Shown piece after piece: positions 1 to 6,996 of a DNA stretch of 6,996 bases. A program made the translations under genes and the position numbers. The notes under the pieces are model-generated. The model saw only the letters and a program-made list of their open reading frames with translations, made no database searches and had not been told where the DNA came from. Within the stretch, counting starts at the first letter, position 1; each line of letters starts with the position of its first letter. Source of the stretch: Desulfobacca acetoxidans (GTDB taxonomy: Bacteria; Desulfobacterota; Desulfobaccia; Desulfobaccales; 0-14-0-80-60-11); the NCBI GenBank assembly GCA_022736495.1, contig DZCR01000159.1, positions 1-6,996 on the forward strand, written 5' to 3'.

Positions 1-300
1 AAGAAAAGCATTCCCGCCCTTTACGGCAGCCTCGGCATCTATCTGCCGCTGATTACCACCAACTGCGCGGTTCTGGGTGTCTGCCTCATCAATATCAAGG
101 AGGACTATACCTTTGTCGAATCCCTGGTGACCTCCTTTGCCTATGCCGCCGGGTTCGGCCTGGCCCTGGTTCTTTTTGCCGGGGTCCGGGAAAGAATCCT
201 ACTGGCCAGGGTCCCCAAACCCTTGCAGGATGTTTCCATCGGACTGATTACGGCCGGGATCATCGCCATGACCTTCATGTCCTTCAAAGGAATGGTATAA
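1..300 (+). CDS. rnfA: RnfA, Rnf electron transport complex membrane subunit (3' part only)
   Basis: The reading frame is open from the window edge to TAA at 298-300 and gives the last 99 residues of a protein that is normally about 190 long, so the 5' half lies outside the window. The visible part is a hydrophobic membrane protein with the RnfA/NqrE signatures: a LITTNCAVLGV segment near visible residues 17-27, a GFGLALVLFAGVRER segment around 55-70, and a final helix ending in AGIIAMTFMSFKGMV. The cysteine in TTNCA (visible residue 22) is one of the conserved cysteines that RnfA and RnfE use to hold an intramembrane iron-sulfur centre; that role is known from the family. RnfA is an integral subunit of the ferredoxin:NAD+ oxidoreductase that couples electron transfer to Na+ or H+ translocation. 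rnfB follows 68 bases later on the same strand, which fits the usual ...E-A-B gene order. NqrE is the close paralogue, but the RnfB neighbour settles the call. Confidence 0.95.
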   Translation, partial: KKSIPALYGSLGIYLPLITTNCAVLGVCLINIKEDYTFVESLVTSFAYAAGFGLALVLFAGVRERILLARVPKPLQDVSIGLITAGIIAMTFMSFKGMV

Positions 301-368: not shown

Positions 369-2462
369 ATGATTCCAGCTCTGTTGTTAATGTTAGGCAT
401 CGGCGCCGTCTGCGGTATTGTGCTCAGCCTGGCTTCCAAGATCTTTTATGTCTATGAGGACCCGAGAATTGCCATGGTGGAAAACTGTCTTGCCGGGGCC
501 AACTGCGGCGGGTGCGGTTTTGCCGGGTGTTCCGCCGCCGCTGCGGCCGTTGTGTCCGGTAAGGCGCCGGCAAATATCTGCATCGTTTCCGGAAAAACCG
601 GGGCCGAGGCCGTTGCCAAGGTCATGGGTGTGGAAGTGGGCAATGCGGAAGCGCCCCTGTCCTATAATATGTGTGAAGGCGGGTTCAGAGCCGCCGATAA
701 ATACCATTATATGGGCATCTCCTCCTGCAAGGCCATGGCCGTCGTATTCGGCGGCAAGCGGGTCTGCACCGTGGGCTGCATCGGACTTGGGGACTGTGTC
801 AAGGCCTGCCAGTTCGGCGCCGTCGCCATGGGACCCAAGGGGCACCCGGTGGTGGACGAGGAAAAATGCGTGGGCTGCGGCGCCTGTCAGAAGGCCTGCC
901 CCAAGGACATTATCGAGGTCAAGACCCTTTCCGAAAGGCTCATGAAATTCAACCAGAAACATGATCCCCTGGCGCCCTGCGCCCAGACCTGCCCGGCCGA
1001 AATCAATATTCCGCGCTATATCAACCAGCTCAGGGAAGGCAAATACAAGGAGGCGGTCCAGACCATCCGTCTTCGAAATCCCTTGCCCCTGGCCTGCGGC
1101 CGGGTCTGCCCCCATCCCTGTGAAACTGAATGCAGAAGGGGTATTGAGGATGAACCCGTATCCATCAACCAGTTGAAACGCTTTGTGGCGGATTATGAAA
1201 TGAACTCCGGGGCCCGGATCCCCATCAAATGCGCCCCGGATACCGGGAAAAAAATAGCCGTTATCGGCGGCGGGCCTTCCGGTTTATCCTGCGCCTTCTT
1301 CCTGAGACGGATCGGCCACCGGGTGGATATTTTCGAAGCCATGCCCAAACTGGGGGGCATGCTCAGATACGGCATCCCGGAATACAGGCTCCCTAAAAAG
1401 GTCCTGGACTGGGAAATCCAGGGCATCCTGGACCTGGGCATCAAATCCTTTAACCATGTTAAATTCGGCATCGATTTCGGCCTGGGCTCCCTGATGGCTG
1501 CGGGCTACAATGCCGTTTTCCTTGGTGTCGGCGCCTGGGAGGATTTCTCCCTGGGCATAGAAGGGGAAAACCTGGACGGGTGCTATACCGGCATCAATTT
1601 TCTCCAGAGGATTTCCAGCGGAGAAAAAATCAAGCTGGGCAGGACCGCAGCCGTGGTCGGCGGCGGGAATACGGCCGTTGACTGCGCCAGAACCCTATTG
1701 CGCCTGGGCCTGGATAAGGTCTATATGGTCTACCGACGGACCCGGAAAGAAATGCCGGCCAATGAGGTTGAGATTGTGGCCTCGGAACATGAAGGCATTG
1801 ATTTTGTCTTCCTGGCCGCACCCACCCGGGTGGTCGGGGACGATAAAAACAAGGTCACCCACCTGGAATATCTGAAGATGCAGTTGGGCGAACCGGACAA
1901 GAGCGGCCGCCGCCGCCCGGAACCCATAGAAGGATCCGAGACCCTGCTGGCCGTGGACATGGTCATCTCCGCCATCGGCCAGTCTCCGGACGCCTCATTT
2001 AAGAACCAGGACCCCCAGCACCGGATGAAGGAACTGGAACTGACCCGGTGGAATACCATTGACAATAATCCCGCCACCCTCCAGGCTTCCATTCCCTATA
2101 TCTTTACGGCCGGGGATGCCGCCACAGGGCCTTCCCTGGTGGTGGACGCCATCGGCGGCGGAAGACGGGCGGCCCGGTCCATCGATCTTTTCCTGAAAGG
2201 GGAGGCCGTTGAGCCGGTGAAAGATTCGCTCCAGAAAAAACGGATCCATGAATCCATTTTCACAAAGGTGGACGGCATCAAGCAGACCCCCAGGGCCAAA
2301 CAGCCGGAACTGCCTGTCGGCGAAAGGCTGGATTCCTTTATCGAAGTCGATCTGGTGCTTCCCGAAGCCGAGGCCCACCGGGAAGCCGAAAGATGCCTCA
2401 ACTGCTGCCGCATCTGCTATAACCCGGACATTGTTTTCCCCATTGCCAAAAAAGCGGGTTGA
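369..2462 (+). CDS. rnfB: RnfB fused to a GltD/NfnB-like FAD/NAD(P) oxidoreductase
   Basis: This is the ferredoxin-facing subunit of the Rnf complex, carrying an extra flavin module. At 697 aa it is far longer than simple RnfB proteins (about 190-330 aa). Residues 1-24 form the hydrophobic anchor. Residues 40-71 are the Fe-S domain (C46, C49, C54, C71; ANCGGCGFAGC). Residues 120-180 hold two ferredoxin-type clusters (C133/C137/C143/C147 and C167/C170/C173/C177). From about 200 the chain becomes the small subunit type of glutamate synthase and NfnB: an N-terminal Fe-S domain (C204, C208, C243, C247, C251, C255), the FAD dinucleotide fold GGGPSG (300-305), the conserved GGMLRYGIPEYRLP (329-342), a second NAD(P) fold GGGNTAVD (431-438) followed by YRRTRKEMPA (455-464), and the FAD-closing FTAGDAATGPSLVVDAIGGG (579-598). 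A cysteine-rich tail (C676, C679, C680, C683) ends the protein. No frameshift or stop interrupts the junction. Family knowledge suggests electron transfer between ferredoxin, the Rnf complex and possibly NAD(P)H; that last role is inference. Confidence 0.93.
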   Translation: MIPALLLMLGIGAVCGIVLSLASKIFYVYEDPRIAMVENCLAGANCGGCGFAGCSAAAAAVVSGKAPANICIVSGKTGAEAVAKVMGVEVGNAEAPLSYNMCEGGFRAADKYHYMGISSCKAMAVVFGGKRVCTVGCIGLGDCVKACQFGAVAMGPKGHPVVDEEKCVGCGACQKACPKDIIEVKTLSERLMKFNQKHDPLAPCAQTCPAEINIPRYINQLREGKYKEAVQTIRLRNPLPLACGRVCPHPCETECRRGIEDEPVSINQLKRFVADYEMNSGARIPIKCAPDTGKKIAVIGGGPSGLSCAFFLRRIGHRVDIFEAMPKLGGMLRYGIPEYRLPKKVLDWEIQGILDLGIKSFNHVKFGIDFGLGSLMAAGYNAVFLGVGAWEDFSLGIEGENLDGCYTGINFLQRISSGEKIKLGRTAAVVGGGNTAVDCARTLLRLGLDKVYMVYRRTRKEMPANEVEIVASEHEGIDFVFLAAPTRVVGDDKNKVTHLEYLKMQLGEPDKSGRRRPEPIEGSETLLAVDMVISAIGQSPDASFKNQDPQHRMKELELTRWNTIDNNPATLQASIPYIFTAGDAATGPSLVVDAIGGGRRAARSIDLFLKGEAVEPVKDSLQKKRIHESIFTKVDGIKQTPRAKQPELPVGERLDSFIEVDLVLPEAEAHREAERCLNCCRICYNPDIVFPIAKKAG

Positions 2463-2542: not shown

Positions 2543-3562
2543 ATGACAAAACACCGGTATAAAATATTCCTCATTGCCGCGGCAGGCCTGTTGATCTTTG
2601 ACCTTTGCGCGGCGGTTTACCTTTATTTTGATTTCTCCTCTTTCATCAAAACCCCCTTCATTCCCAATGCCCCGGAAAAAACCATCACCCTCCTTCCGGG
2701 CCAGGGCCTAAAAACCATTGCCGGCCGGCTTGAAAAAGAGGAAATCATTTCAAACCGCCTTTATTTTTCCTTATTCGCAAAGCTCAAAAAGGCCGGGAAA
2801 AAACTCCAGGCCGGAGAATATCTTTTGTCGGCTTCCAAATCCCCGGAAGAGATTCTGGATATTCTTGTCAAAGGAAGGGTAAAGCTCTACAGGATCACCC
2901 TTCCCGAGGGGCTCACCATCAGGGAAGTGGGAGCTCTGGTGGAAAAGGAGAATTTCTGCAGCCGGGAACAATTCACGGCCCTCTGCCGGCATCCCCTCCT
3001 CATGGCAAAACTGGGGATTTCCGCTCCTTCCCTGGAGGGCTATCTTTTCCCGGATACCTATTTTTTCCCGAAGCAGACGGCCTGTGAAGACATCATCGCC
3101 GCCATGACCGGGCGTTTCAACACCGTGTTCACTGAAAACCGGAAGCAAAGGGCCCTGGAACTGGGCTTCTCGGTCCATGAAATCCTCACCCTGGCCTCCA
3201 TCATCGAAAAAGAAACCGGGGAGGCTTCCGAACGCCCCCTGATCTCCTCCGTCTTTCACAACCGCCTGAAAAAAAATATGAGGCTTGAAAGCGACCCCAC
3301 CGTCATATACGGCCTGGAAAATTTTGACGGGAACATCAGAAAAATTCACCTTCAAACCCATACGCCCTATAATACTTACCAGATCACCGGGCTTCCGCCG
3401 GGCCCCATTGCAAACCCCGGCGCCTTATCCCTTGAGGCCGCCCTTTATCCCGCAACAACCCCATATCTTTTTTTTGTGTCGAAAAACGACTCCACCCATT
3501 ATTTTTCAGAGAGTTTTGAAGAGCATAAAAAAGCCGTCATAAAATATCAGCTCAAAAGATGA
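2543..3562 (+). CDS. mltG: MltG, endolytic peptidoglycan transglycosylase (YceG-like)
   Basis: This is a 339-aa inner-membrane enzyme that cleaves nascent glycan strands internally and is thought to help set glycan chain length or terminate synthesis. Residues 7-29 are a single N-terminal membrane anchor, placing the rest in the periplasm. Residues about 46-125 form the LysM-like domain. The catalytic YceG domain follows: GYLFPDTYFF (166-175), LASIIEKETG (217-226), where E222 aligns with the family's catalytic glutamate, RLESDPTVIYG (247-257), and YNTYQ...GLPPGPIANPG (276-293). Length matches the family (about 330-350 aa). ATG 2543 is the only good start, because an in-frame TAG lies upstream at 2489-2491 with no start codon between. 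The ribosome binding site is weak (GAG at 2534-2536). The gene follows the rnf terminator directly and ends one base from the convergent Smr gene. No functional link with rnf is evident; the adjacency is probably incidental. Confidence 0.95.
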   Translation: MTKHRYKIFLIAAAGLLIFDLCAAVYLYFDFSSFIKTPFIPNAPEKTITLLPGQGLKTIAGRLEKEEIISNRLYFSLFAKLKKAGKKLQAGEYLLSASKSPEEILDILVKGRVKLYRITLPEGLTIREVGALVEKENFCSREQFTALCRHPLLMAKLGISAPSLEGYLFPDTYFFPKQTACEDIIAAMTGRFNTVFTENRKQRALELGFSVHEILTLASIIEKETGEASERPLISSVFHNRLKKNMRLESDPTVIYGLENFDGNIRKIHLQTHTPYNTYQITGLPPGPIANPGALSLEAALYPATTPYLFFVSKNDSTHYFSESFEEHKKAVIKYQLKR

Positions 3563-3563
3563 C

Positions 3564-4145
3564 TCAGCCGTCAAACCGTTCAAACTGTTTCAGATATATG
3601 ATCAAGGCCCCGCTTTTAGACTTGATCTTATTGTCCCAGTCAAACCCGATAACCAGGCCCTGTTTTTTCATTTCCCGGGCCACATCCTCCACCACATCGG
3701 GCAGGACGGCGCCCTCATCCGAATGGCGGCCCTTGCCCACAATGATCCGGATGGTGAAAAATCCCTGCTGTTTGCAACTATGGATAAAGGACCTGGATCT
3801 CACCTCGGCCCCGACGGCGGTATACCCGTGAAGGTCCAGGGCCTTTTCCGGCGGTGGATAGCGTTTGAGCCTCTTTTCAAGAGGTATGGGCGGCGGCTTT
3901 TTCAAGGGTTTGACCCTGCCCTTCCGGAAGGATTCTTCCAGCAAGGTTTCAAAATCCTCTTCCGGCTCATCCCCTGCCTCAAACCCGTTTCCCGTCCGGT
4001 TGACCGGTTTTATTTCCCCCAGCCGGGATGTCCGCCCGTCATTGGTTTCATCCGGGGTTTCATCCTTGGATTTTTTTTCAAAGGCTTTTATTAACTCCTC
4101 ATCCGAATGAAAAACCGGCAGATCATGTTTATTTCTTTTTTTCAA
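3564..4145 (-). CDS. Smr-domain protein (MutS2/SmrB-type C-terminal nuclease domain)
   Basis: This 193-aa protein consists of a charged, probably disordered N-terminal half (1-75, many D/E/K), a basic proline-rich linker (77-99) and a C-terminal Smr domain. The domain shows the two family hallmarks: LDLHG (103-107), with the D104/H106 pair of the DxH motif, and VGKGRHS (136-142), which corresponds to the GxG loop. It ends with the usual hydrophobic strand ALIIYL (180-185). Known Smr domains act as RNA or DNA endonucleases; E. coli SmrB cuts mRNA at collided ribosomes. There is no MutS part, so this is a stand-alone Smr protein. The start codon is TTG (4145-4143 on the reverse strand). It is forced: an in-frame stop lies at 4160-4158, and the first internal Met is residue 159. 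GGGAAG five bases upstream of the TTG (4156-4151) is a plausible ribosome binding site. The exact substrate cannot be deduced from sequence. Confidence 0.9.
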   Translation of the reverse strand: MKKRNKHDLPVFHSDEELIKAFEKKSKDETPDETNDGRTSRLGEIKPVNRTGNGFEAGDEPEEDFETLLEESFRKGRVKPLKKPPPIPLEKRLKRYPPPEKALDLHGYTAVGAEVRSRSFIHSCKQQGFFTIRIIVGKGRHSDEGAVLPDVVEDVAREMKKQGLVIGFDWDNKIKSKSGALIIYLKQFERFDG

Positions 4146-4234: not shown

Positions 4235-4263
4235 TTGACAACATCCCCCCTTCCTGATATTGT
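4235..4263 (+). promoter_or_regulatory. Predicted extended -10 promoter of the RNB exoribonuclease gene
   Basis: TTGACA (4235-4240, perfect -35 consensus) and TATTGT (4258-4263, 4 of 6 for -10) are separated by exactly 17 bases, and a TGA triplet directly before the -10 supplies the TGn of an extended -10. The predicted transcription start is about 4269-4271, essentially at the ATG of the RNB gene. The TTG of this -35 hexamer is also the farthest-upstream possible start codon of that reading frame; the promoter reading argues against using it for translation. Confidence 0.6.
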
Positions 4264-4270
4264 CTCTGGC

Positions 4271-6250
4271 ATGAATACAGGGAATATTGTGGAATATATT
4301 GATCAGCAGAAAATCATTTCTGCCGTCATTTTGCAGGAAAAACAAGGCAAGCTCAGATTACTCAATGAGTATAACCGGGAAGTTAATTTTTCCGAGCACC
4401 GGCTTTCTCATATATCCCAGGGACGGCTTGACACAACCCTGTCCAGGGATTTCATCGTCACCCAGCTCAAGCAGCTCACAGAGACCCGCAAAAGACTTTC
4501 TGAAACCATCAATATTGAGGAATTATGGGAAATCCTGCATGAAGAGTCCGAAGATATTGAATTGTCCACCATGACCCTGTTCTGCTTTGATCCTCCCCTG
4601 ACTTCCGACCACGAAGCCGCCGTTATCCGGGCCTTTTTCCATGACCGGCTCTATTTTAAATTCAACAAGATGATTTTTGCCCCCTATTCCGCCGAACAGG
4701 TGGAAGGGAAAAAACGGCAGCTCCGGGAACTGAAAAAAAAGGAACTCCGGGTCCAGAACGGGGCCGCCTGGATCAATGATATCCTGAATCAGAAAAACGG
4801 GAGCAGCACCACCGTTGATGAGGCCGTCATTGATATGCTCAAATCCTTTTACCTTTTCGGCAATGATTCCGACCATGCCTCCATTGCCAAAGAGATTATT
4901 AAAAAATCATCCCTCCATTCAGCGGAACAGCTCTTTCATGTCTTTGTCAAAGCCGGGGTCTGGCATCCGGATGAAAATATCCACCTTCTTTCCCTGAAAA
5001 TCCCCACGGTCTTTCCAGATCAGGTTCTGGAGCAGGAACAAAGGCTCATCTCAAATCCCATCCGGTTTACCGACGACCCTTTGAGAAAGGATCTGACCCA
5101 TATTCCCCTCATCACCATTGACGGCCAGTCCACCCTTGATTTTGATGACGCCGTCAGCCTTGAGAACACGGAAACAGGATACCGGCTCGGGATTCATATC
5201 ATTGACGTGGATGCCTTTATCAAATCCGATGACCCCATTGACCTGTCCGCCCGGGAAAGGGCCAGCTCCATCTACATGCCCGACGACAAGCTCCCCATGA
5301 TTCCGCCCAGGCTTTCCGAGGATCTTTGCAGTTTAAAGGAAGGTGAAACCAGGCCCGGCATCAGCACCCTCATCCGGATGACCCGGTTCTTTGAAATCCA
5401 GGATTATGAAATTATTCCCAGTATTATTAAAATCCACCAGAAGCTCTCCTATACCGAAGCCAATCTGTTGAACGGAAAAAATGATCCCATCACCACCCTT
5501 TACCGGATGGCCCTTCAACTCAGGGAAAAACGCCTCAAAGCCGGCGCCATTCAGATTACCCTTCCCGAGGTCAATGTCTGGCTGGAGGAAAACGGGGAAA
5601 TCGGGTATTCAAAAATCGACAGGGAAAATTCATCCCGCATGCTCATCTCGGAATTGATGATCCTGGCCAATTCCCTCATGGCTGAATTTCTGGCAAAAAA
5701 TCAGATGCCGGCTGTTTTCAGATCCCAGGCCCAGCCCAAACAAAGGCTTTTCAAAGGCGTTGAAACCTCCCTGATCCTGAATTTCATGCAGAGAAAGCAG
5801 TTAAGCCGGGCCATGATCGGCACCACCCCGGAAGCCCATGCCGGTCTCGGGGTCAATGCCTATGTCACGGCCACCTCGCCCATCCGGCGATACCATGACC
5901 TCTTGACCCAGCGCCAGCTCAAGGCCATATTCGGATACCATGCGCCCTATTCAAAACCGGAACTGGATGAGATCCTTTTCTCCATCTCAACGGCAGTGGC
6001 CAATACCAGCCGCATCCAGGCTTCAAGAAGACGGTACTGGATCATCAAATACCTGGAATCCAAAAAAGGCCTGGCCTTTGACGCCCTGGTACTGGAATGC
6101 CACAGGGATCACTATCTTATCCTCATCAAGGAATTCATGCTGGAAACAAAACTGGTCCCGGCCGGCATCCGGCTCAAATACGGGGACATTGTCCAGGTGA
6201 CCATCCAGCATGCGGACGCAAGAAAGGATCAGCTTTCTTTATTTATTTGA
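4271..6250 (+). CDS. RNase II/R family (RNB domain) 3'-5' exoribonuclease
   Basis: A 659-aa processive 3'-5' exoribonuclease of the RNB superfamily, acting on mRNA in the cytoplasm. The catalytic domain spans about 268-570. ITIDGQSTLDFDDA carries the four metal-binding aspartates (D284, D290, D292, D293). HIIDVDAFI (309-317) replaces the more usual HIADVAxFV. PMIPPRLSEDLCSL (342-355) and LISELMILAN (458-467) are typical, and VTATSPIRRYHDLL (532-545) contains the conserved arginines of the active site. The last 60 residues look like an S1/OB-type RNA-binding fold. The first 265 residues do not show a recognisable cold-shock domain; they begin with a small beta-rich segment (GNIVEYI...) and continue helical, resembling the compact RNase II form of deltaproteobacteria, cyanobacteria and plastids. 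I chose ATG 4271. Alternatives are TTG 4235, which falls in a -35 hexamer, and GTG 4289, which has an AGGGA at 4279-4283. All catalytic residues are present, so it should be active. Confidence 0.92.
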   Translation: MNTGNIVEYIDQQKIISAVILQEKQGKLRLLNEYNREVNFSEHRLSHISQGRLDTTLSRDFIVTQLKQLTETRKRLSETINIEELWEILHEESEDIELSTMTLFCFDPPLTSDHEAAVIRAFFHDRLYFKFNKMIFAPYSAEQVEGKKRQLRELKKKELRVQNGAAWINDILNQKNGSSTTVDEAVIDMLKSFYLFGNDSDHASIAKEIIKKSSLHSAEQLFHVFVKAGVWHPDENIHLLSLKIPTVFPDQVLEQEQRLISNPIRFTDDPLRKDLTHIPLITIDGQSTLDFDDAVSLENTETGYRLGIHIIDVDAFIKSDDPIDLSARERASSIYMPDDKLPMIPPRLSEDLCSLKEGETRPGISTLIRMTRFFEIQDYEIIPSIIKIHQKLSYTEANLLNGKNDPITTLYRMALQLREKRLKAGAIQITLPEVNVWLEENGEIGYSKIDRENSSRMLISELMILANSLMAEFLAKNQMPAVFRSQAQPKQRLFKGVETSLILNFMQRKQLSRAMIGTTPEAHAGLGVNAYVTATSPIRRYHDLLTQRQLKAIFGYHAPYSKPELDEILFSISTAVANTSRIQASRRRYWIIKYLESKKGLAFDALVLECHRDHYLILIKEFMLETKLVPAGIRLKYGDIVQVTIQHADARKDQLSLFI

Positions 6251-6335: not shown

Positions 6336-6996
6336 ATGGCAATCAATGGGAACCCCCCGGACAAACCCGATACCACCCCCCACAAATGGCGTTTTGTCCG
6401 CATCGGAGGATTTGACCATGTCCTGATCAATTCCGGTGAGGATATCTCATCCATCCCCCGCCTGGATCAAAAGCTCTGGGCAGCCCTGGCCTGCCCTACC
6501 CAGGGCCTGGAATTCGACCCGGCCACCCTGGCCCACATGGACAAAGACAAGGATGGACGCATCCGGGCCTCTGAAGTCATTGAAGCCCTGAACTGGACCC
6601 TCTCCCTGATCAGAAACCCCGACGATCTGACCCGCAGCAACACCCATCTTCCCTTGTCCGCCATCAATGAGGAAAGCCCGGAAGCCAAAGACATTCTTTC
6701 CTGTGCAAGGGAAATTTTAAAAAATACGGGCAAGGCTCAGTCAGACGCTATTACACCGGCGGATGTGGCGGATAAGGTTAAAATTTTCGCCAATACCCGG
6801 TTTAACGGCGACGGCATTATCCCTGCCCTGGCATCGGAGGACCCGACCATCAGGCAGGTCATTGAGGACATCATGGACTGCCTGGGATCTGAGCCGGACC
6901 GCAGCGGTCTGCCCGGCATCACCAAGGAAAAGGCGGACCAATTCTTCACGGAGGCCAGGCAATATTCGGAATGGTGGCGCCGCACCGAAGGAGAAA
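6336..6996 (+). CDS. EF-hand domain protein of unknown function (3' end outside window)
   Basis: The frame is open from ATG 6336 to the window edge (220 complete codons, no stop), so the gene is truncated on the right. There is no signal peptide or membrane segment in the visible part, which suggests a cytoplasmic protein. Residues 69-80 are a canonical 12-residue EF-hand loop, DKDKDGRIRASE, with D69, D71, D73, G74, I76 and E80 in the calcium-binding positions, followed by a helix. A second, degenerate loop-like stretch (FNGDGIIPAL, 156-165) keeps N157, D159 and G160 but lacks the terminal glutamate. The upstream part (KWRFVRIGGFDHV...LDQKLWAALACPTQGLEFD, about 17-61) resembles the start of long conserved hypothetical proteins found across anaerobic and environmental bacteria; this is from memory and not checked. 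No enzymatic motif is visible, so I assign no function beyond probable Ca2+ binding. Confidence 0.85.
   Translation, partial: MAINGNPPDKPDTTPHKWRFVRIGGFDHVLINSGEDISSIPRLDQKLWAALACPTQGLEFDPATLAHMDKDKDGRIRASEVIEALNWTLSLIRNPDDLTRSNTHLPLSAINEESPEAKDILSCAREILKNTGKAQSDAITPADVADKVKIFANTRFNGDGIIPALASEDPTIRQVIEDIMDCLGSEPDRSGLPGITKEKADQFFTEARQYSEWWRRTEGE

Follow-up and report, generated by a model that had tools for sequence, protein, structure and literature searches.

A StnC-like module joined to RnfB in a Tol2-type Rnf of Desulfobacterota: a possible entry point for NADPH

The fused rnfB gene and its spread

The subject of this study is an rnfB gene of Desulfobacca acetoxidans whose product is joined to a GltD-like module, and which lies in a 6,996-nucleotide stretch of contig DZCR01000159.1 that is referred to here as the window. 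The presence of both parts in one chain is real. The gene is a single unbroken reading frame (Table 1), in which an RnfB with membrane helix, FeS domain and Fer4 dicluster is followed by a Fer4_20 and FAD/NADP-binding module of about residues 200-615 and then by a cysteine-rich tail. Pfam places FeS at residues 41-72 and Fer4_7 at 137-181, ahead of Fer4_20 and Pyr_redox_2. The NCBIfam model TIGR01944 (rnfB) exceeds its cut-off on the fusion (74.5 against 68.7 bits), and PRK12771 matches residues 196-684 with 494 bits, slightly below its cut-off of 516. The RnfB half also matches the RnfB chains of solved Rnf complexes (9eri_B over residues 8-185 and 7zc6_B over 5-199), and the second half, within 178-684, matches 9bov_A and 9n5u_A (NfnA of NfnABC) and 8oh5_C (StnC), the same three that come top among solved structures for an AF2 model of the fusion (61 rows, mean pLDDT 73, pTM 0.68). 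Ordinary RnfBs of fusion-carrying genomes have a further cysteine-rich segment after the dicluster, in the place where the fusion has its GltD-like part. The original prediction, made from the DNA letters alone, described an intact RnfB (residues 1-185) joined to a FAD/NAD(P) module (200-697), and its limits were right to within a few residues; the putative NAD(P) site does share a chain with the RnfB clusters.

An assembly error joining two genes, which had been named as something that would undo the prediction, is rejected because full-length homologues are abundant and named isolates carry the same fusion. Each homologue in the best 120 of 6749 matches, a set in which P0001 is the window's own protein, covers at least 99% of the fusion at 74-100% identity and is 687-700 amino acids long. 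A scan of genome contigs confirmed 134 relatives, of which 80 loci were kept, and at 79 of them the frame is open for at least 650 amino acids, that of L044 being broken (522 amino acids). Their titles name members of the Desulfobacterales or broader groups (Deltaproteobacteria, Proteobacteria); the isolates are Desulfospira joergensenii, Desulfobacter latus, Desulfobacter vibrioformis and Desulfosarcina alkanivorans, and two metagenome-assembled genomes (MAGs) titled Desulfobacter postgatei also have the fusion (L029, L032). The search across genomes that the original prediction had proposed covered 148 genomes from the phylum of D. joergensenii, of which 106 match at 1e-100, mostly through the GltD-like part alone, and at least 17 match at full length (query start at or before 10, end at or beyond 684). 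The pN/pS against five relatives lies at 0.04-0.20 in the RnfB part, at 0.04-0.14 in the GltD part and at 0.12-0.21 in the tail.

The suspicion that related fusions exist in sulfate reducers was well founded. The fusion as such is not new, since its architecture has been published as the Tol2-type Rnf (Rnf2) by Doerries et al. 2016 (PMC5109826), who described for Desulfobacula toluolica Tol2 and Desulfococcus multivorans an RnfB of about 700 amino acids with NAD+-binding sites. According to the same account D. multivorans has an ordinary Rnf1 in addition to Rnf2, a cytochrome gene stands in its rnf2 cluster, five subunits of Rnf2 were found in every condition and RnfA2 in six, and the mode of action of Rnf2 awaits verification.

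Table 1. Positions of genes and features in the window
Feature	Position	Strand	Evidence
3' end of rnfA, truncated at window start	1..300	+	Pfam Rnf-Nqr; top NCBIfam match TIGR01943 rnfA
rnfB-GltD fusion, 697 aa	369..2462	+	ORF, Pfam, NCBIfam, solved-structure matches, homologues
RnfB part, residues 1-185: membrane helix, FeS domain, Fer4 dicluster	369..923	+	Pfam, NCBIfam, structures
Fer4_20 Fe-S domain, residues 202-280	972..1208	+	Pfam; Cys columns
Codon of K270, position of the StnC Lys (Glu in NfnB)	1176..1178	+	Lys in 80/80, alignment, PMC10482914
Pyr_redox_2, FAD/NADP-binding, residues 295-597	1251..2159	+	Pfam; fold match to 9bov_A, 9n5u_A, 8oh5_C
YRRTRKEMPA, NADP-side motif, residues 455-464	1731..1760	+	column counts
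C-terminal tail, residues 616-697, CLNC at 676-679	2214..2459	+	columns; weak alignment to NfnB N-terminus
mltG	2543..3562		YceG Pfam
Weak Smr-type match	3564..4145	-	below cut-off
RNB-family ribonuclease, probable start ATG 4271	4235..6250		start suggested by the relative L028
Start of an ORF cut by window end	6336..6996		EF-hand-like stretch by eye; no Pfam match

Residues shared with StnC

Column counts over 80 sequences (the window and 79 loci) help to define what kind of module has been joined to RnfB. All twelve cysteines of the RnfB part (46, 49, 54, 71, 133, 137, 143, 147, 167, 170, 173 and 177) and the Fer4_20 cysteines C204, C208, C243, C247, C251 and C255 are kept in 80/80. So are nine columns of YRRTRKEMPA (Y, R, R, T, R, E, M, P and A), only K460 being variable, and the Arg of RYGIP near the FAD is present in 79/80. 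Strict exact-pattern counts in the fusions were lower (FAD start 54/79, FAD end 52/79, second Fer4 59/79, tail 40/79, first FeS pattern 0/79) and are superseded by the column counts where the residue was checked. FAD and NADPH binding may be supposed, as the corresponding motifs and the fold are intact.

In fold and in FAD/NADP motifs the module resembles NfnB of NfnAB, but it differs from it in the residue beside the FAD. NfnB has a Glu there as ligand of the neighbouring cluster, in 4/4 NfnB read from fusion-carrying genomes and also in 4ylf and 5jca. All 80 fusions have Lys (K270), which aligns with K170 of StnC. The opening CxxC of the Fer4_20 part of NfnB is absent in 79/79 fusion frames, and the CLNC of the tail (C676 and C679 kept in 79/80, with one gap) aligns weakly with it; a tail of this kind is also present in StnC and NfnA. 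By its Lys, its C-terminal CxxC and matches of 378-436 bits, the module belongs with StnC (8oh5, from the Stn transhydrogenase of Sporomusa) and with the NfnA of NfnABC (9n5u, 9bov), neither of which is fused to RnfB. The tail likely replaces the N-terminal CxxC of NfnB and GltD, judging from the alignment. By analogy with dihydropyrimidine dehydrogenase, the cluster near the FAD is presumably held by C208, C247, C251 and K270, and the far one by C204, C255, C676 and C679. Beyond the CxxC come two further tail cysteines, C680 (77/80) and C683 (79/80), which are encoded at 2406-2417 of the window. StnC binds NADPH and has lost bifurcation according to its authors (PMC10482914).

A distant clade of fusions, from nine genomes and 37-42% identical to that of the window, was set apart from this system, as 8/9 lack YRRT and two adjoin formate dehydrogenase-like genes. 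In those eight (L124-L131) the FAD motif is partly changed and the Fe-S cysteines are retained; the ninth, L174, keeps YRR. Some of the eight stand in rnf operons, and for L124-L128 (37-41% identity, Fe-S cysteines largely kept) no rnf gene was found on the fetched 14-15 kb. The genes beside L124 and L127 were likened to formate dehydrogenase by eye.

The rnf operon in related genomes

Of this operon the window contains just rnfB and the end of rnfA. The other genes, including rnfC and rnfD, were read from relatives, of which the closest intact ones (L001 and L030) have fusions 95-96% identical to that of the window. The operon runs cytochrome c-rnfC-D-G-E-A-B, and all six genes ahead of rnfB lie upstream of the fusion in 56/80 loci. 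The other 24 comprise 15 with a partial set, several of them at contig ends, and nine with none upstream. Five of these nine begin near a contig start (L006, L037, L049, L061, L064), three have the cytochrome, rnfC and rnfD downstream of the fusion with the same motif losses as described below (L040, L056, L072), and L057 has no detectable rnf gene on either side over 18 kb. The cytochrome has four to eight CxxCH motifs in 56/56 complete operons and three in L072. In a fusion-first operon (L118:4639-5397) a gene between fusion and cytochrome has, by eye, a cNMP-binding-like part and a C-terminal [2Fe-2S] thioredoxin-like segment. The fusion of L132 keeps YRRT and no rnf gene was found nearby; a gene close by encodes a membrane protein that, by eye, resembles a haem b subunit.

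The membrane and periplasmic parts of these operons are those of an Rnf. In the 56 complete operons the cysteine patterns of RnfA and RnfE were counted in 56/56, 56/56, 56/56 and 55/56, with RnfE at 56/56 and the lone RnfA exception (L048) a frame mis-picked by the script. The flavin motif of RnfG is SGAT in 57/61 and GGAT or AGAT in the other four. It is in RnfC and RnfD that the relatives depart from a ferredoxin:NAD+ oxidoreductase. Among RnfC frames of at least 380 amino acids, which leaves out L044 (297 amino acids), L019, L047 and L051, none of 55 has GLGGA, GxGGAxFP, ECEPY or EDNKP, and the Thr at the flavinylation column of RnfD is found in 0/60 (Y in 26, A in 23, others in 11). Canonical copies from fusion-carrying genomes (ten fetched of the 11 places over the family cut-off) have GLGGAxFP and ECEPY in RnfC in 10/10 and the RnfD Thr in 10/10. 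Alignment of the two types of RnfC shows loops that have been rebuilt, beyond mere variation of letters, and Pfam finds neither Complex1_51K nor SLBB in the three relatives' RnfC scanned. These relatives thus agree with the Tol2 type both in an RnfB of about 700 amino acids with an NAD-binding module and in an RnfC without NADH-ubiquinone oxidoreductase and SLBB domains. The view, held in the original prediction, that NAD+ is handled by RnfC does not fit this family. Since motifs have been lost from RnfC and RnfD, the nucleotide site seems to have been relocated from RnfC to RnfB and not added.

The portions of PMC5109826 drawn on here do not mention that the module is of the GltD/StnC kind, nor its Lys, its tail or the RnfD change. 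Nor were the Lys, tail and RnfD change found described for a Tol2-type Rnf in the accessible parts of open-licence literature that includes PMC2702500, PMC6085437, PMC4103992, PMC7699770, PMC5296606, PMC10553843 and PMC4841214; they may stand in the 2013 Tol2 paper.

Canonical RnfC over the cut-off is also present in 9/20 fusion-carrying genomes. In the other 11 the Tol2 type may be the sole Rnf, but many of the genomes are MAGs, in which absence is weak evidence.

The changes in RnfC and RnfD extend beyond the fusion. With the RnfC of L001 as query, 59 of the 148 phylum genomes gave a match, and 30 loci were fetched of the 64 matches listed; these score best against a Tol2-type query and are hence biased to that type. 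The FMN loop GxGGAxFP is missing from 22/30 and kept in 8/30. Ten of the 22 lie beside a fusion (seven read, three by coordinates), six are unassigned, and six adjoin an unfused RnfB frame of 271-316 amino acids (L172, L173, L177, L178, L182, L184), the gene in L172 being divergent. No [ST]xAT occurs at any place of rnfD in the 15 regions examined, and L184 has a gene for a ten-haem cytochrome. As the same changes stand beside unfused RnfB, loss of the NAD site is independent of the fusion, which seems to have added an NADPH entry to an Rnf already linked to cytochrome, if the order of events is as we infer. Judging by these motif counts, Rnf complexes that do without NAD seem to be common among the Desulfobacterota. 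The RnfC homologue L090 was rejected as an Rnf, being PduS-like by its neighbours (L117, by eye), and L102 has a similar match pattern.

Routes for electrons and their implications

The explanation we favour, at slightly better than even confidence, is that the fusion is the RnfB of a Tol2-type, non-bifurcating and ion-translocating NADPH (perhaps also ferredoxin):cytochrome c oxidoreductase. NADPH would reduce the FAD of the GltD-like part, from which electrons would pass singly through its two [4Fe-4S] clusters into those of RnfB, where ferredoxin may still enter. RnfA/E would carry them on from RnfB to the periplasmic FMN of RnfG, from which the operon's own multihaem cytochrome c would accept them, so that RnfD, RnfC and NAD+ would be bypassed. 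The canonical route runs from ferredoxin through RnfB, RnfAE, RnfG, RnfD and RnfC to NAD (PMC9588780), and its last steps look broken because the flavin sites of RnfD and RnfC are lost; for the same reason an exit from RnfG to the cytochrome is proposed, and the operon cytochrome beside RnfG would be the simplest acceptor. The transmembrane step could be coupled to movement of Na+ or H+ as in Rnf and NQR. By our own estimate the transfer from NADPH to a low-potential cytochrome c is downhill by perhaps 0.1-0.2 V, which would suffice to move roughly one ion, or more, for each pair of electrons. The system might also run backwards, with the gradient driving the reduction of NADP+. One of the roles originally suggested for the fusion, that NADPH feeds or drains the Rnf chain, is the most natural reading.

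Parallels for parts of this route have been published. In Methanosarcina acetivorans, whose rnf operon also includes a cytochrome c, transfer from RnfG to cytochrome c was proposed and Rnf does not react with NAD or NADP; a GltD fusion is not mentioned in the part of that report used here (PMC4023990). For Desulfovibrio it was hypothesised that a multihaem cytochrome encoded in an rnf operon connects NAD(P)H and ferredoxin with the cytochrome pool of the periplasm (PMC4287179).

Several points weigh against this explanation. In M. acetivorans RnfB could not reduce RnfG, and the authors route electrons through RnfC and RnfD to RnfG (PMC4023990). The operon cytochrome dhcA of Desulfovibrio alaskensis had little effect on fitness, so that its authors doubt a role in Rnf (PMC4215793), and the rnf2 cytochrome of D. 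multivorans was detected only in lactate-adapted cells (PMC5109826). The Fer4 motif CxxCGxCxxxCP is kept in 55/55 RnfC of fusion operons, so that electrons might instead leave by way of RnfC to some other partner. Some Tol2-type RnfD have a Thr one to three positions off the canonical column, for example SATDPL in L071. The preference for NADPH over NADH is proposed from likeness of motifs, and the confidence of the AF2 model is moderate. Finally, the loss of YRRT from eight of the nine distant fusions suggests that a GltD-like module can become structural.

The most serious alternative, which we nevertheless consider improbable, is a membrane-tethered ferredoxin:NADP+ oxidoreductase in which electrons would pass from ferredoxin through RnfB and FAD directly to NADP+, the remaining Rnf being secondary or moving electrons through the RnfC clusters to a cytoplasmic partner. 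The union of ferredoxin-type clusters and an FAD/NADP module in one chain would suit such an enzyme, as would the intact Fer4 motif of RnfC and the ferredoxin:NADP activity reported for membranes of Desulfobacter postgatei. It would have no need, however, of the six partner genes that precede the fusion in 56/80 loci, and in the other 24 the set is incomplete at a contig end or with genes cut (20), downstream (three) or missing (L057 alone). Forms without a membrane part do exist (L134, L135), which also argues against it.

Flavin-based bifurcation or confurcation at the fused FAD, with NADPH, ferredoxin and a second acceptor at the membrane, had been raised in the original prediction and is very unlikely in our view. 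An NfnB-like fold and the RYGIP Arg near the FAD are what it would lead one to expect, but K270 is the Lys of the non-bifurcating StnC and not the Glu of NfnB, and the RnfC has no NAD motif. No NfnA-like gene was seen by eye in four fusion neighbourhoods (L001, L028, L021, L071), for which no HMM search for NfnA was made. The check for separate nfnAB that had been recommended found NfnB-type genes (TIGR01316 over cut-off) in 17/20 fusion-carrying genomes, with nfnA visible beside nfnB in three of the four read (L137, L139, L140). A shade less probable again is that the GltD-like part has no catalytic function and serves only to carry Fe-S clusters; the distant fusions L124-L131 offer a precedent for it, but in the clade of the window 79-80 of 80 sequences keep the aligned NADP and Fe-S residues, and pN/pS is low. 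Least credible is a canonical Rnf with an extra NADPH port, an ion-pumping NADPH:NAD+ transhydrogenase whose RnfC would reduce NAD+ and which was assumed at the outset, because for all that the gene order is that of Rnf, the motif losses in RnfC and RnfD and the missing Complex1_51K and SLBB domains speak against it.

If an NADPH:cytochrome c oxidoreductase is the right explanation, the nucleotide site has moved from the output (RnfC) to the input (RnfB) of the complex, which would give NADPH a direct ion-pumping entry. Such an enzyme would be an independent counterpart of Na+-NQR, in which an NAD(P)H module also stands on the input side and NqrA, according to one proposal, descends from an RnfC whose NAD and FMN were lost as a new NADH module was taken up (PMC4014512). 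The likeness has limits, since NqrF is a different flavoprotein and the module here is Fer4_20 plus Pyr_redox_2, and since RnfB and the Fe-S motif of RnfC are retained and the flavin Thr of RnfD is not.

Sulfate reducers with complete oxidation of acetate produce NADPH and reduced ferredoxin, and there is no agreed route by which the electrons of these carriers reach the respiratory chain. Moeller-Zinkhan and Thauer reportedly found in 1988 a membrane-bound NADPH dehydrogenase and a ferredoxin:NADP oxidoreductase activity in Desulfobacter postgatei. Because the two MAGs titled with that name carry the fusion and a published list gives an rnf cluster for strain 2ac9 (PMC4046663), the Tol2-type Rnf is a candidate for this dehydrogenase, and would be the enzyme behind its activity if the explanation holds. 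More broadly, and with somewhat less than even confidence, we suggest that Desulfobacterota have a second kind of Rnf which has abandoned NAD+ for an exit from RnfG to periplasmic cytochrome c, and in which, in a Desulfobacterales-centred lineage, a StnC-like module on RnfB lets NADPH drive the pump. Not every rnf cluster should be taken for a ferredoxin:NAD+ oxidoreductase, as the 22 of 30 RnfC loci without the FMN loop indicate for a biased sample, and, if the same loss beside an ordinary RnfB has the same meaning, that label would be wrong for many Rnf of sulfate reducers.

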